The notes beneath the pieces were generated by a model. That model saw only the letters and a program-made list of their open reading frames with translations. It searched no databases and was not told where the DNA came from. From Clostridiales bacterium (lineage in GTDB: Bacteria > Bacillota > Dehalobacteriia > UBA4068), in assembly GCA_009783415.1 (NCBI GenBank), contig WRHF01000003.1, forward strand, positions 1 through 35,649: DNA of 35,649 bases. The letters are read 5' to 3'. Both the position numbers and the translations under genes were made by a program. This document shows positions 10,227 to 31,918 of the stretch, in pieces (the first letter of the stretch is position 1; the number at the start of each line of letters is the position of its first letter).

Positions 10227-10501
10227 AGTAACCTCGCTATGCAATTCACAATTCACAATTTTTTCTGCTAATGGTCAAAATGACCATCAGCAGATTGGGG
10301 GTATTATAAAACTTGTGGTTGTCTTCCTCATAGTGGCTTTTGCCCTCAACTCACTCGAATAAGGGTTAGGAGCTTTGTTACGAGAAAGATATGTGCCCTC
10401 AGTTACTTAGTGAGACTTTAGGGCCGGCGGCGCCGGGACAAACCCTCGCCGGCTATGCCGGCGTCCCCTTTCAAAAGGGGGCTTGAGCTGGTTGATTTGT
10501 T

Positions 10502-27508: not shown

Positions 27509-28951
27509 TTATTGCCTGCTTGCATATGTCTGCTTCGAACTTTTTGGTTTATCCGGCAACGTCAAACGCAGTAATCCTGCATTCACCAATGGCTGAATAA
27601 CTCCGTTCATGGTATGGGTTCGGGAAAAGCCTGTAAATGTGGTTATTTCTTCCCTTGTTTTTGGTATATTACAGAATTCAAGGAGTTCTTTTTGCAGCGT
27701 TTCTCTGCTTCGTTTGTTTTCTGCCTGAAAAATATTATTTTTAAAGATGACTTTAAATTCTCCGCGGCGCACCTCAAAAACCGGCGCAGGGATACCTGCC
27801 TTTGCGCATTCGGAGCGTATTGTGGGGATGCCGGAATAACGGTTTTCCGTCACATCCAATAATTCCAAAATATTTGCCAGCGCGGAGTTTCGCGTATCGG
27901 GGCGCACCTTGCCCAGGGAGTCAATCGTTATTTTTCCATATAGCCCGCCGCTGTTGATGATCTCCATCCGGTCCCGGTACATTTCTATGCGTACTGGTAT
28001 ATTTTGGGAATGAACGCTGTAGTCACGGTGTACCAGGGCATTTAGAACCGCCTCCCTGACTGCTTTAGGCGGGTATTCCAATTTATCACGGCGCTTGCCA
28101 TCGTCATCAATAATAGTTTTATTACGGCTATTTCTGCGCACAAAATCAACAGCAGGCTCTATCATATCGGGAATGGACCCGGTAATGCGCTGATTATCTA
28201 TAAACCGTTCATCATCATCCCCCAAATCGCCCATTAACAGGCCGGGCAGGGAAACGGCGGTGATACAGAGCTGCGGGAAATAACCCTGGGGGTATTTGGA
28301 AAAGGACATGATCCCCGCAATAGTAGGCACACCCTCGGCAGTTACTCCCATCAGCTCCATGATCTCGTCATCAGGCACACTTTCGGCCAGATTCTTCCGC
28401 TCTCTCTTTACGGCGGCTAAATAATTGTTAAATTTTACCTCATCAAATAAAGATAACTTAGCCTTTTCCACCCGGCGCAAATCGTCCTGAACTTGTTTGC
28501 GGAAGGCTTCATAGCTGTAAATCTCATATTCACTAATAGGCTCATCCGATTCACACACCCGGACATAAGAGCCTTTGATTTTGCCGACGCCCCGATAATA
28601 AACAGGACGCTCCGAAATATCCACCGCCGGGATTTCTGCCGAAACAATCATTTCTCCATCCATCTCGGCAACAGTAAAAAGAGGCCGCACCTGAGGCTCC
28701 ATTTGCTTACACTGCTCGGTAACCTTCTTCTGCAGATCCTGAGCATCATAAACCCCCACAAGCTTAAATTTCTCTTTCTCATCCAAGCCAAAAAGAATGA
28801 TCCCCCCGTCATCCTGATTAGAAAAGCCGGACAAAGTTCCATACAGCTTGGTTGGGCAACCGCCCTGCGCAGCTTTTACTTCAATCGTTTGCGTTTCGCA
28901 TTGGATCCTTTGGATGCGTTTAGCTAAGGCAATTAAATCAGCCTCTTGCAT
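27509..28951 (-). CDS. ATP-binding protein with AlbA_2 (Schlafen-like) N-terminus and HATPase_c_4-type domain
   Basis: QTIEVKAAQGGCPTKLYGTLSGFSNQDDGGIILFGLDEKEKFKLVGVYDAQDLQKKV; YPPKAVREAVLNALVHRDYSVHSQNIPVRIEMYRDRMEIINSGGLYG. Confidence 0.85.
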   Translation of the reverse strand: MQEADLIALAKRIQRIQCETQTIEVKAAQGGCPTKLYGTLSGFSNQDDGGIILFGLDEKEKFKLVGVYDAQDLQKKVTEQCKQMEPQVRPLFTVAEMDGEMIVSAEIPAVDISERPVYYRGVGKIKGSYVRVCESDEPISEYEIYSYEAFRKQVQDDLRRVEKAKLSLFDEVKFNNYLAAVKRERKNLAESVPDDEIMELMGVTAEGVPTIAGIMSFSKYPQGYFPQLCITAVSLPGLLMGDLGDDDERFIDNQRITGSIPDMIEPAVDFVRRNSRNKTIIDDDGKRRDKLEYPPKAVREAVLNALVHRDYSVHSQNIPVRIEMYRDRMEIINSGGLYGKITIDSLGKVRPDTRNSALANILELLDVTENRYSGIPTIRSECAKAGIPAPVFEVRRGEFKVIFKNNIFQAENKRSRETLQKELLEFCNIPKTREEITTFTGFSRTHTMNGVIQPLVNAGLLRLTLPDKPKSSKQTYASRQ

Positions 28952-29156: not shown

Positions 29157-29219
29157 ATGGATAAGAATATTTCCTCTGTTATCGCAATGATAACCCCTGT
29201 TGGGAAGGGTTACACATGA
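29157..29219 (+). CDS. Tiny ORF (MDKNISSVIAMITPVGKGYT), possible small protein or gene remnant
   Basis: AAGGGGTGG upstream; its TGA overlaps the next ATG (ATGA). Confidence 0.3.
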   Translation: MDKNISSVIAMITPVGKGYT

Positions 29220-29275
29220 CAGGCCCGCTGTATACCATCGACAGTATTGATGAGTATATTAAAAACCACGTATAA
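29216..29275 (+). CDS. Tiny ORF (MTGPLYTIDSIDEYIKNHV), possible small protein or gene remnant
   Basis: ATGA overlap with the preceding ORF; ends just before hairpin module copy 1. Confidence 0.3.
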   Translation: MTGPLYTIDSIDEYIKNHV

Positions 29276-29281
29276 AGCTAA

Positions 29282-29430
29282 CTTACAGAGGTTAATGTTC
29301 ATTTTGAGCATCAACCTCTGTGAGTTGATTTTTCCTCTTCTAGATATTAGCCACTGAGGTTCGAGCGAAGCATGAATTGGTAAAAATACCTCATCAACAG
29401 ACCTTTAGTCGGGTCTGTTGATGAGGTATT
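29282..29430 (+). repeat. Two-hairpin module, copy 1
   Basis: Stem 1 CTTACAGAGGTTAATGTTC/GAGCATCAACCTCTGTGAG; linker with GAGTTGATTTTTCCTCTTCT and CGAGCGAAG; stem 2 AATACCTCATCAACAGACC/GGTCTGTTGATGAGGTATT (19 bp perfect). Confidence 0.9.
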
Positions 29431-29452
29431 AAAACATGCTCTTGAAAAATAC

Positions 29453-29481
29453 TTGATTCTGTCCTGCATATAGGGTATACT
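29453..29481 (+). promoter_or_regulatory. Promoter of the toxin/antitoxin operon, with an inverted repeat over the -10
   Basis: TTGATT (29453-29458), 17-bp spacer, TATACT (29476-29481); TATAG..CTATA dyad overlapping. Confidence 0.6.
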
Positions 29482-29504
29482 ATATCAAGAAGGAGCGTAG
29501 CCAT

Positions 29505-29852
29505 ATGAAAAGAGAATTCATAGCAACTACAGTTTTTGACAAGCGATGGAAAGGTTTGGATTTATCTGATGAAGATTTAAGTAGACTTGAAAACTACATC
29601 ATGGATAATCCTGCAGCGGGAAACATGATAGAAGGCACAGGAGGAGCGATAAAACTAAGATATGCCCTGCCTGGGCAAGGGAAGAGTGGTAGCGTTCGAG
29701 TTATTTTTATTGATATTATCAAAGCTGAAAAGGTATATTTTCTGACTTGTTATCCAAAATCAAGGCAGAATAACTTATCGGACAATGAAAAAGCAGCTAT
29801 CAAGGAAGTTGTCAAACGTGTACTGGAACGGGAAAGGGAGGTGTTGCAATGA
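29505..29852 (+). CDS. RelE/HigB-like type II toxin
   Basis: 115 aa: DKRWKGLDLSDEDLSRLENYIMDNPAAGNMIEGTGGAIKLRYALPGQGKSGSVRVIFIDI..KVYFLTCYPKSRQNNLSDNEKAAI; aaggagcg RBS; ATGA overlap with the next ORF. Confidence 0.85.
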   Translation: MKREFIATTVFDKRWKGLDLSDEDLSRLENYIMDNPAAGNMIEGTGGAIKLRYALPGQGKSGSVRVIFIDIIKAEKVYFLTCYPKSRQNNLSDNEKAAIKEVVKRVLEREREVLQ

Positions 29853-30055
29853 GTGATAACATCAGTGTTTTCGATGATATTATGCAAGCATTGAGTGAAG
29901 TAGAGGAACACCAAAAAGGTAACATTCAGCTAAAATCAACATTTGTCGAGCGCCCCGATGACGACATTGGATCTATGTTTGAACAATTGGAAGAGGGCGA
30001 TAAGCACCTCGTTATAGGCATGGTTAAGAGACTGCTTGTTGCAGGCAGTAGATAA
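29849..30055 (+). CDS. Short antitoxin-like partner (68 aa) without a recognisable HTH
   Basis: Coupled to the toxin; N-terminus ISVFDDIMQALSEVEEHQKGNIQLKS resembles the start of HigA/XRE-type antitoxins; no HTH segment visible. Confidence 0.6.
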   Translation: MSDNISVFDDIMQALSEVEEHQKGNIQLKSTFVERPDDDIGSMFEQLEEGDKHLVIGMVKRLLVAGSR

Positions 30056-30106
30056 AGTGGGAAAGTTTGCATGTTGATGTGTACATCAGAAACTATGCTA
30101 ATAGGT

Positions 30107-30258
30107 AACTCAAAGAGGTTGAGTCTCATTTTGAGACTCAACCTCTTTGAGTTGATTTTTCCTCTTCTGGCTACTGGGATGCGAGCGAAGTATTTGTTGG
30201 CAAATTATCTAAATATCCCATCAGCAAACCTTTGAAAGAGTCTGCTGATGGGATATTT
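30107..30258 (+). repeat. Two-hairpin module, copy 2 (direct orientation relative to copy 1)
   Basis: Stem 1 AACTCAAAGAGGTTGAGTCTCA-ttt-TGAGACTCAACCTCTTTGAGTT (22 bp perfect); same linker motifs; stem 2 AAATATCCCATCAGCA/TGCTGATGGGATATTT. Confidence 0.9.
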
Positions 30259-30286: not shown

Positions 30287-31918
30287 TTACTCAACTTCAG
30301 CTAAGTCTTCCCTGGGAAGGATTTCTTTGGGCTCGGCTGCAATTGCCGGATCCGGTTCATCTGCACTTTTGCCGAGGAATTCCGGTAATTTCATTCCGGT
30401 CATTTCGAACAGTTCATTGAGGGGCGGCAGGGATTTCATTAGGCCTGATAAAAAGCCGGCTGTGGCGGTTTTGTTTTCTGTGCCGCTTGCGCCTCCGTCC
30501 CAAACGGTGACTTTATCAAATTTAATATTTTTGATTGCATCCACTTGAATGCGCATAAGTTGCTCCATTTTATCAGCCAGCATCAAACGCAGGGCGCTTG
30601 AGGGATCGCCGCCGGCGGATTCTACAATACGGGCTAAACCTTCGGCTTGACGGGTGAGTATTTCCTTTGTACCCTTTGCCTGAGCTTCCATTTTGGCAAA
30701 GATAGCGTCAGCCTCGCCTTTGGCATATCTTCTCACGACCTCAGCCTGGGCTTCTGCATCGATCTCGGCTTGTTTCTTTTGAATTTCGGCTTTGACAACA
30801 ATGTCAGCCTGCTGGGTGGCGCGCTCAAGTTCGGCTCTGACCATTTCGGCTTTTCTTTTTGCCTCATAGGCTTCTTCATTGGCCTTTGCAGCCTGAACGG
30901 CCTCAGCTGCCATTGCCAGCTTCAAAGCTTCTGCTTCTCTTTCCCGCCGATTTGAATCCGAGCGGGCGATTTCGATTTTTGCATCGTTCTCGCCCTGGAC
31001 AGCAACGGCATTGGCTGCCGCAACTGCGATACGTTGTTCACGTAAAGCCTGGGCTTGGCCGATACTACCGTCTCTATCTCTTTCGGCAATAGCAATTTTA
31101 GCTTCATTTTCAGCTTTGGCCTTGGCCTCTGCTTCCAATTGCATCCGCAAGGCTTCCGAGCGGGTGATTTCCACCCGGGCATTGTTTTCCCCCTGGACAG
31201 CCGTGGCATTAGCCGCGGACACCTGAACGCGCTGGTCACGGACGGCGTTGGCTTCGCCGATGGTACCATCACGGTCCTTTTCAGCGACACTGCGCTTGGC
31301 ATCGTTGATAGCTTGGGCGGCGGCTTCGCGGCCCAGAGCAATAATATAGCCGGATTCGTCATTGATATCAGTAATATTGACATTGATCAAACGCAGTCCG
31401 ATTTTACGCATTTCCGTCTCTACATTGCGGGAAACGGCCTCCAAAAACTTATCCCGGTCAGCATTGATATCTTCAATTTCCATAGTAGCAATGACCAGAC
31501 GCATTTGGCCCACTATGATATCTTTAGCCAATTCCTGCACTTCAGAGAGTTTAAGCCCCAACAGACGCTCGGCGGCATTTTGCATGATCCCATGTTCGGT
31601 AGAAATACCCACGGTAAAGCGGGAGGGGACATCGATCCGGATATTTTGCTTGGAGAGGGCGCTTTTCAAATCCACACTGATGGAAATAGGCGTCAGATCC
31701 AGGTAACGGTATGCCTGAACAACCGGCCAGATAAAGGCTGCACCCCCATGGACACAGCGGGCGGTCCGGGCAGTGCCGTCCTTATTGCTGCCCACATTAC
31801 CATAAATTACCATGATTTTATCGGAAGGACATCTCCGATAGCGGCTGAGAAGCATAATAAGAAAGGAAAAGAAAAGGATAACGAGGACACAAACTAAAAC
31901 TACAATATAAGGTTGCAT
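30287..31918 (-). CDS. Flotillin-like SPFH/band-7 membrane protein (YuaG/FloT-like)
   Basis: N-terminal TM, YLDLTPISISVDLKSALSKQNIRIDVPSRFTVGIS, Ala/Glu-rich coiled coil, KFDKVTVWDGG. Confidence 0.88.
   Translation of the reverse strand: MQPYIVVLVCVLVILFFSFLIMLLSRYRRCPSDKIMVIYGNVGSNKDGTARTARCVHGGAAFIWPVVQAYRYLDLTPISISVDLKSALSKQNIRIDVPSRFTVGISTEHGIMQNAAERLLGLKLSEVQELAKDIIVGQMRLVIATMEIEDINADRDKFLEAVSRNVETEMRKIGLRLINVNITDINDESGYIIALGREAAAQAINDAKRSVAEKDRDGTIGEANAVRDQRVQVSAANATAVQGENNARVEITRSEALRMQLEAEAKAKAENEAKIAIAERDRDGSIGQAQALREQRIAVAAANAVAVQGENDAKIEIARSDSNRREREAEALKLAMAAEAVQAAKANEEAYEAKRKAEMVRAELERATQQADIVVKAEIQKKQAEIDAEAQAEVVRRYAKGEADAIFAKMEAQAKGTKEILTRQAEGLARIVESAGGDPSSALRLMLADKMEQLMRIQVDAIKNIKFDKVTVWDGGASGTENKTATAGFLSGLMKSLPPLNELFEMTGMKLPEFLGKSADEPDPAIAAEPKEILPREDLAEVE

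Follow-up and report, generated by a model that had tools for sequence, protein, structure and literature searches.

Tandem terminator-like palindromes on both sides of a HigB2-type toxin/antitoxin operon in a Clostridiales bacterium

Intrinsic (Rho-independent) terminators, including bidirectional ones, combine a hairpin with a T-run in an intergenic position 3′ of genes, and their stems may diverge by compensatory change, as documented for Bacillus cereus (PMC5381666). Bidirectional terminators are also documented in connection with the uptake signals of Neisseria and Pasteurellaceae, where a repeated motif in inverted orientation forms the terminator stem (PMC1852404). Families of stem-loop repeats, moreover, are well described in bacterial genomes and include REP and MITE-like elements, palindromes that are scattered over the intergenic spaces of a single genome and restricted to it (PMC2267715). 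The two-hairpin modules analysed here come from a stretch of 35,649 nucleotides of a Clostridiales bacterium (GenBank assembly GCA_009783415.1, contig WRHF01000003.1), henceforth called the window, and share the features just listed with each of these systems while differing from all of them. Compared with intrinsic terminators, they have stems of 18–25 pairs, a core common to several loci, hairpins in tandem, and one copy lying between divergent genes; compared with uptake-signal terminators, their paired core was counted at only ~13 loci (17 places at up to 3 mismatches) versus ~1,000 or more copies of the uptake signals; and compared with REP or MITE-like elements, their copy number is low, a Y1 transposase was not found, and neither terminal repeats nor target duplications were noticed around the modules. 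HigB2 is known from the superintegron of Vibrio cholerae, and our locus resembles integron attC sites in that direct copies of a foldable site flank a HigB2-type toxin/antitoxin (TA) operon. However, the module stems are nearly perfect, there is no cassette array, and the attC core sites RYYYAAC/GTTRRRY are not matched by the module ends, which by eye read AGCTAAC / GTTGATT in one copy and AGGTAAC / GTTGATT in the other.

The two copies are direct repeats at 29247–29430 and 30074–30258, spaced 827 bp apart, and bracket the TA operon (table 1). Each comprises a hairpin 1 with 23 stem pairs and a loop of 3 nt, then ~57 nt of linker, then a hairpin 2 of 18–20 pairs, and the folding z-scores of all four hairpins range from −6.7 to −10.7. 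The local alignment of copy 1 with copy 2 scores 171, against 51 for the highest of 300 shuffles, with an identity of ~75%; the direct repeat at the module starts, D1, reaches 78% over 100 nt. A preliminary description of this DNA had placed the modules at 29282–29430 and 30107–30258, which is right, even if the homology begins ~33 bases farther upstream, at 29247 and 30074. It had also recognized a RelE-type TA pair between the copies, and the toxin does belong to the RelE superfamily (PF06296), its nearest PDB entry being Toxin HigB-2. Tandem duplication of the entire TA operon was considered separately and rejected, the flanks outside the modules being no closer than shuffles.

Table 1. Coordinates of the modules, the TA operon and associated features in the window
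Feature	Positions	Strand	Remarks
Third member of the hairpin 1 family	10264–10294	.	Palindrome family; without clear T-run
Upstream arm, copy 1	29247–29278	+	Common to copy 2 (30074–30105); direct repeat D1
Hairpin 1, copy 1	29279–29327	.	23-pair stem, 3-nt loop (CATTTTG); −29.3 kcal/mol, z = −7.5
T-run after hairpin 1, copy 1 (ATTTTTCCTC)	29328–29337	+	Terminator-like tail, read from sequence
Linker fragment CTAGATATTAGCCACTGAGGTTCGAGCGAAGC	29340–29371	+	Homologous to dispersed MITE-like repeat
Hairpin 2, copy 1	29385–29430	.	19–20 pairs; −33.5 kcal/mol, z = −10.7
Promoter-like site TTGATT, 17 nt, TATACT	29453–29481	+	Consensus scan; upstream of TA operon, downstream of copy 1
HigB2-type toxin, RelE superfamily, 115 aa	29505–29852	+	PF06296 E = 1.7e-13; PDB Toxin HigB-2 E = 2e-15
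Putative antitoxin, 68 aa	29849–30055	+	By position; ATGA overlap with toxin
Upstream arm, copy 2	30074–30105	+	In 3′ UTR of TA operon; direct repeat D1
Hairpin 1, copy 2	30106–30154	.	Perfect stem, 3-nt loop; −37.9 kcal/mol, z = −7.9
T-run after hairpin 1, copy 2	30155–30164	+	Read in the same way
Hairpin 2, copy 2	30211–30258	.	18 pairs; −26.5 kcal/mol, z = −6.7
Band_7 ORF	30287–31918	−	Convergent with TA operon; ends at 30287

The 68-aa partner ORF of the toxin has no Pfam or NCBIfam match and is not recognizable as an HTH (HigA-type) antitoxin; it may represent an antitoxin that is short or of an unusual type. The promoter-like site that separates copy 1 from the toxin gene is a candidate promoter of the operon. 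On the other side of copy 1, a minus-strand gene of Schlafen/AlbA_2 type has its start at 28951. The gene starts flanking copy 1 are divergent, with tiny ORFs only upstream of it. Two of these stand just before the module, at 29157–29219 (MDKNISSVIAMITPVGKGYT) and 29216–29275 (MTGPLYTIDSIDEYIKNHV), with an ATGA overlap; their layout is TA-operon-like, and they are possibly the relic of an earlier operon. The Band_7 gene runs convergent to the TA operon and, therefore, copy 2 is situated between convergent genes, with its hairpin 1 ~50 nt past the stop codon of the putative antitoxin and a gap of 28 nt between its hairpin 2 and the Band_7 gene end. Elsewhere in the genome there is a second HigB2-like toxin gene (G000:C2:24327–24656, L191), 41% identical, which is probably a pseudogene because it has an internal stop codon.

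In our assessment, the modules are probably tandem, long-stem palindromes of terminator-like type, of which copy 2 would end the TA operon and copy 1 would be a relic or diverged duplicate. Their appearance is that of ordinary hairpins for stopping transcription, not of a new kind of RNA or a mobile element. A GC-containing stem-loop with a T-run immediately behind it on the transcribed strand is present in copy 2 at hairpin 1; in copy 1 the same arrangement is visible by eye, but hairpin 2 shows it only weakly, its T-runs being poor. Terminator-like sites in the region number 7 versus 1.2 expected, and the strongest on the + strand is precisely hairpin 1 of copy 2. Location 3′ of a gene applies to copy 2 as well as to most members of the palindrome family discussed below. 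Functionally, hairpin 1 would produce intrinsic termination on the strand in which the T-run follows it, and in both directions at some places; copy 2 would end the HigB2-type TA mRNA, and the transcript of the convergent Band_7 gene may also be stopped, by its hairpin 2. As a putative duplicate or relic upstream of the TA promoter, copy 1 would shield the operon from upstream transcription. Position, fold, tails, family membership and retained pairing are all observed here; termination, insulation and the history of duplication are inferred. Against the terminator reading stand the stems, which are long for intrinsic terminators, the position of copy 1 between divergent starts, a place in which a terminator would serve none of the present genes, and the third family member in the window with its lack of a clear T-run.

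Long hairpins alone are not rare in this genome. In a sample of about 400–435 kb, stems of at least 17 bp occur ~6 times per 100 kb, and those of at least 18 bp 16 times per 400 kb versus 2 after shuffling; what is unusual is to find two such long hairpins within 60 nt, twice over. Stems of at least 13 bp number 15 in 7.5 kb of convergent intergenic DNA, 39 in 31 kb of codirectional and 12 in 11.5 kb of divergent, and the hairpin density in convergent intergenic DNA is ~1.6–1.9 times that of other intergenic DNA.

Hairpin 2 is found only in the two copies of the window. Hairpin 1 of copy 1, by both pattern and covariance model, is a member of a dispersed palindrome family that has the core TGATGNTCATTTTGANCATCA, repeated with variable outer stems, at ~13 intergenic loci of this genome and is private to it. 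BLAST finds five additional places for hairpin 1, the core pattern gives 10 matches versus 0 in the reversed control, and a shorter paired core allowing up to 3 mismatches gives 17 versus 3 in the reversed control on each strand. A covariance model built from six hairpin 1 copies yields 27 matches in the same genome, corresponding to ~13 loci; in the alignment of these six copies, 11 of the 23 pairs are altered on both sides and the covariation score exceeds all 500 shuffles. Since this genome is 85% complete, split into 240 contigs and has several repeat copies at contig ends, the family counts are lower bounds. A separate palindromic repeat family (GTCATCCCGGACTTGATCCGGGATCC...), with stems of at least 30 bp, is present at L213 19817–19892 and L226 12989–13058.

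Three copies of the family occupy spaces between convergent genes: that of C68 separates a MazF-type TA operon from an SLH gene, that of C5 a VapC-like pair from an SLH gene, and that of C92 an SLH gene from two small ORFs. Those of C87, C226, C176 and C56 are 3′ of genes. Wherever a gene ends at a copy, the T-rich tail is in most cases on the strand of that gene, and the tail TTGATTTTTCC of copy 1 hairpin 1 recurs at C101 and C176. SLH surface-protein genes are the commonest neighbours, accounting for 6 of 42 ORFs scanned versus 1 of 57 near another repeat, among the matches listed. Only three loci of the family have a recognizable TA operon next to them, namely the HigB2-type operon of the window (C3) and the MazF-type one (C68), both recognized by Pfam, and the VapC-like pair (C5), recognized by similarity to a VapC-annotated protein of a Leptospira plasmid (31.6% identity, with the same gene order). 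Most other copies stand beside unrelated genes. The small ORF pair of C92 (L179 1743–2223, G000:C92), which has a hairpin and a half module next to it, consists of overlapping frames of 73 and 94 aa, of no known family.

How have the stems of the two copies diverged while keeping their fold? Comparison of 23 + 18 = 41 stem pairs (hairpin 1 plus hairpin 2) reveals 10 differences in the left arms and 6 in the right arms, and all six of the latter are opposite left-arm ones, forming six complete pair swaps (hypergeometric P = 4.7e-5 under random placement); zero swaps remain when the register is slid by 1–3. Hairpin 1 has three full swaps (C-G to A-T, T-A to G-C and G-C to T-A), in addition to two one-sided changes of T-G to C-G, and in copy 1 it contains an A-C mismatch. 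Hairpin 2 has three others (C-G to T-A, T-A to C-G and A-T to G-C), and in copy 2 one of its pairs is lost (G-C to A-C). In total, one pair is open in each module copy. The three swaps of hairpin 2 and the first of hairpin 1 had already been noticed, and the pairwise comparison confirms them. They had been taken as the signature of a selected structure: the retained fold with compensating changes stands, but the signature is weaker than claimed, because hairpin stems can arise and be repaired through template switching during replication, with no selection involved and multi-base compensatory changes included (PMC8794818), and terminators themselves evolve by compensatory change (PMC5381666). 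Given these two processes, covariation does not demand an ncRNA.

The linker adds a second repeat to the picture. That of copy 1, CTAGATATTAGCCACTGAG, differs by two mismatches from a 19-nt motif that occurs 11 times exactly in the genome (control 0); these occurrences belong to a MITE-like repeat of ~170 bp present in ~50 places. Aligned with one version of this repeat, the copy 1 linker has a local score of 40 versus a shuffle maximum of 31, and the link is weaker for the copy 2 linker. Two dispersed repeats thus seem to have been combined in the module. The MITE-like repeat itself, for example in L096 (G000:C85) 255–430, contains the minisatellite CTAGCCACTAGATACTAGCCACTGGG, inner hairpins CCTTTCGCGAAGCGAAAG and GGGCTGCGCC...GGCGCAGCCC, has mosaic variants and is frequently located at the ends of contigs. 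It is conceivable, if unlikely, that the modules are non-functional composite palindromes of MITE-like nature, with replication template switching between the arms rather than selection keeping the pairing and the TA operon lying between the copies by chance. Besides the linker, this would accommodate the recurrence of the hairpin core with variable outer stems, a copy 1 without a gene to terminate, and the adjacent double swap at hairpin 1 pairs 18–19, which fits one template-switch event (PMC8794818). However, neutral spread does not predict that the copies are intergenic and mostly 3′, with T-runs on the expected strand. Under the terminator reading, conversely, a core that is common to several terminators still needs an origin, either the spread of a repeat or gene duplication.

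Could the modules instead be the recombination or insertion ends of a TA cassette, with hairpin loci at which small accessory operons enter? We consider this improbable, even if operons of TA type are next to the family at the three loci mentioned above and two other loci contain half modules. A surface-protein gene in C101 is homologous at its 3′ end to the one in C5, but the hairpin switches near its centre to a right half of C3 type with linker, after which a two-gene unit follows; C92 likewise retains the right half module only (score 44 versus a shuffle maximum of 33). Such half modules hint at breakage at palindrome centres, which does not imply the movement of cassettes. Moreover, a Y1 transposase was not found in this genome, the operons of C68 and C101 have no second module on the other side, HigB2 homologues elsewhere are not flanked by such hairpins, and the two module copies are just ~75% identical. 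The two-gene unit of C101 (L153 7001–8418), which sits between two paralogous surface-protein genes, has overlapping genes for proteins of 322 aa, with a winged-helix region, and 150 aa; the second protein has ~50% identical homologues, with function unannotated, on plasmids of Pseudomonas and Shinella, and the unit reads like a TA or defence pair. The chimeric hairpin of C101 and the half modules of C101 and C92 also suggest, at a level that we regard as highly doubtful, that genome-specific palindromic terminators are preferred break and join points for the insertion or exchange of small accessory operons, TA included.

Beyond this genome, DNA searches for the module found nothing in 100 related genomes, phages or plasmids; Rfam gave 0 matches above the gathering threshold and mostly microRNA-type noise at low threshold; and the covariance model of hairpin 1 had at most 3 matches in any of 60 relatives, as opposed to 27 in its own genome, most of the matches in relatives being ordinary terminator-like hairpins of other sequences. 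The preliminary description had proposed a structured ncRNA or, alternatively, a folded ssDNA substrate for transposition; the former is not supported by these results, nor is the latter by the count of Y1 (HUH) transposases (PF01797), which is 0 in this genome (85% complete) while control genomes are positive. Loci with HigB2 homologues in other genomes lack paired hairpins, and a partnership between the modules and the TA operon is likewise not supported. Exact matches to the pattern CAACCTC-N3-6-RTTGATTTTTCC in genome contigs (54 stretches) and viral contigs (9) were dismissed as chance because the left arm is absent in every case. That the modules encode a structured regulatory ncRNA acting as partner of the TA operon, which would account for the retained pairing and for two copies flanking the operon, is barely credible, with no Rfam match, no module relatives beyond this genome and most hairpin 1 copies lying beside other genes.

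The terminator reading of these modules carries a wider message, namely that compensatory changes between two hairpin copies alone do not indicate a new ncRNA, since long palindromic terminators and template-switch repair produce an identical compensatory picture. Should it be true that palindromic terminators constitute preferred break points, they would provide TA operons with a simple route to settle between genes without disturbance.
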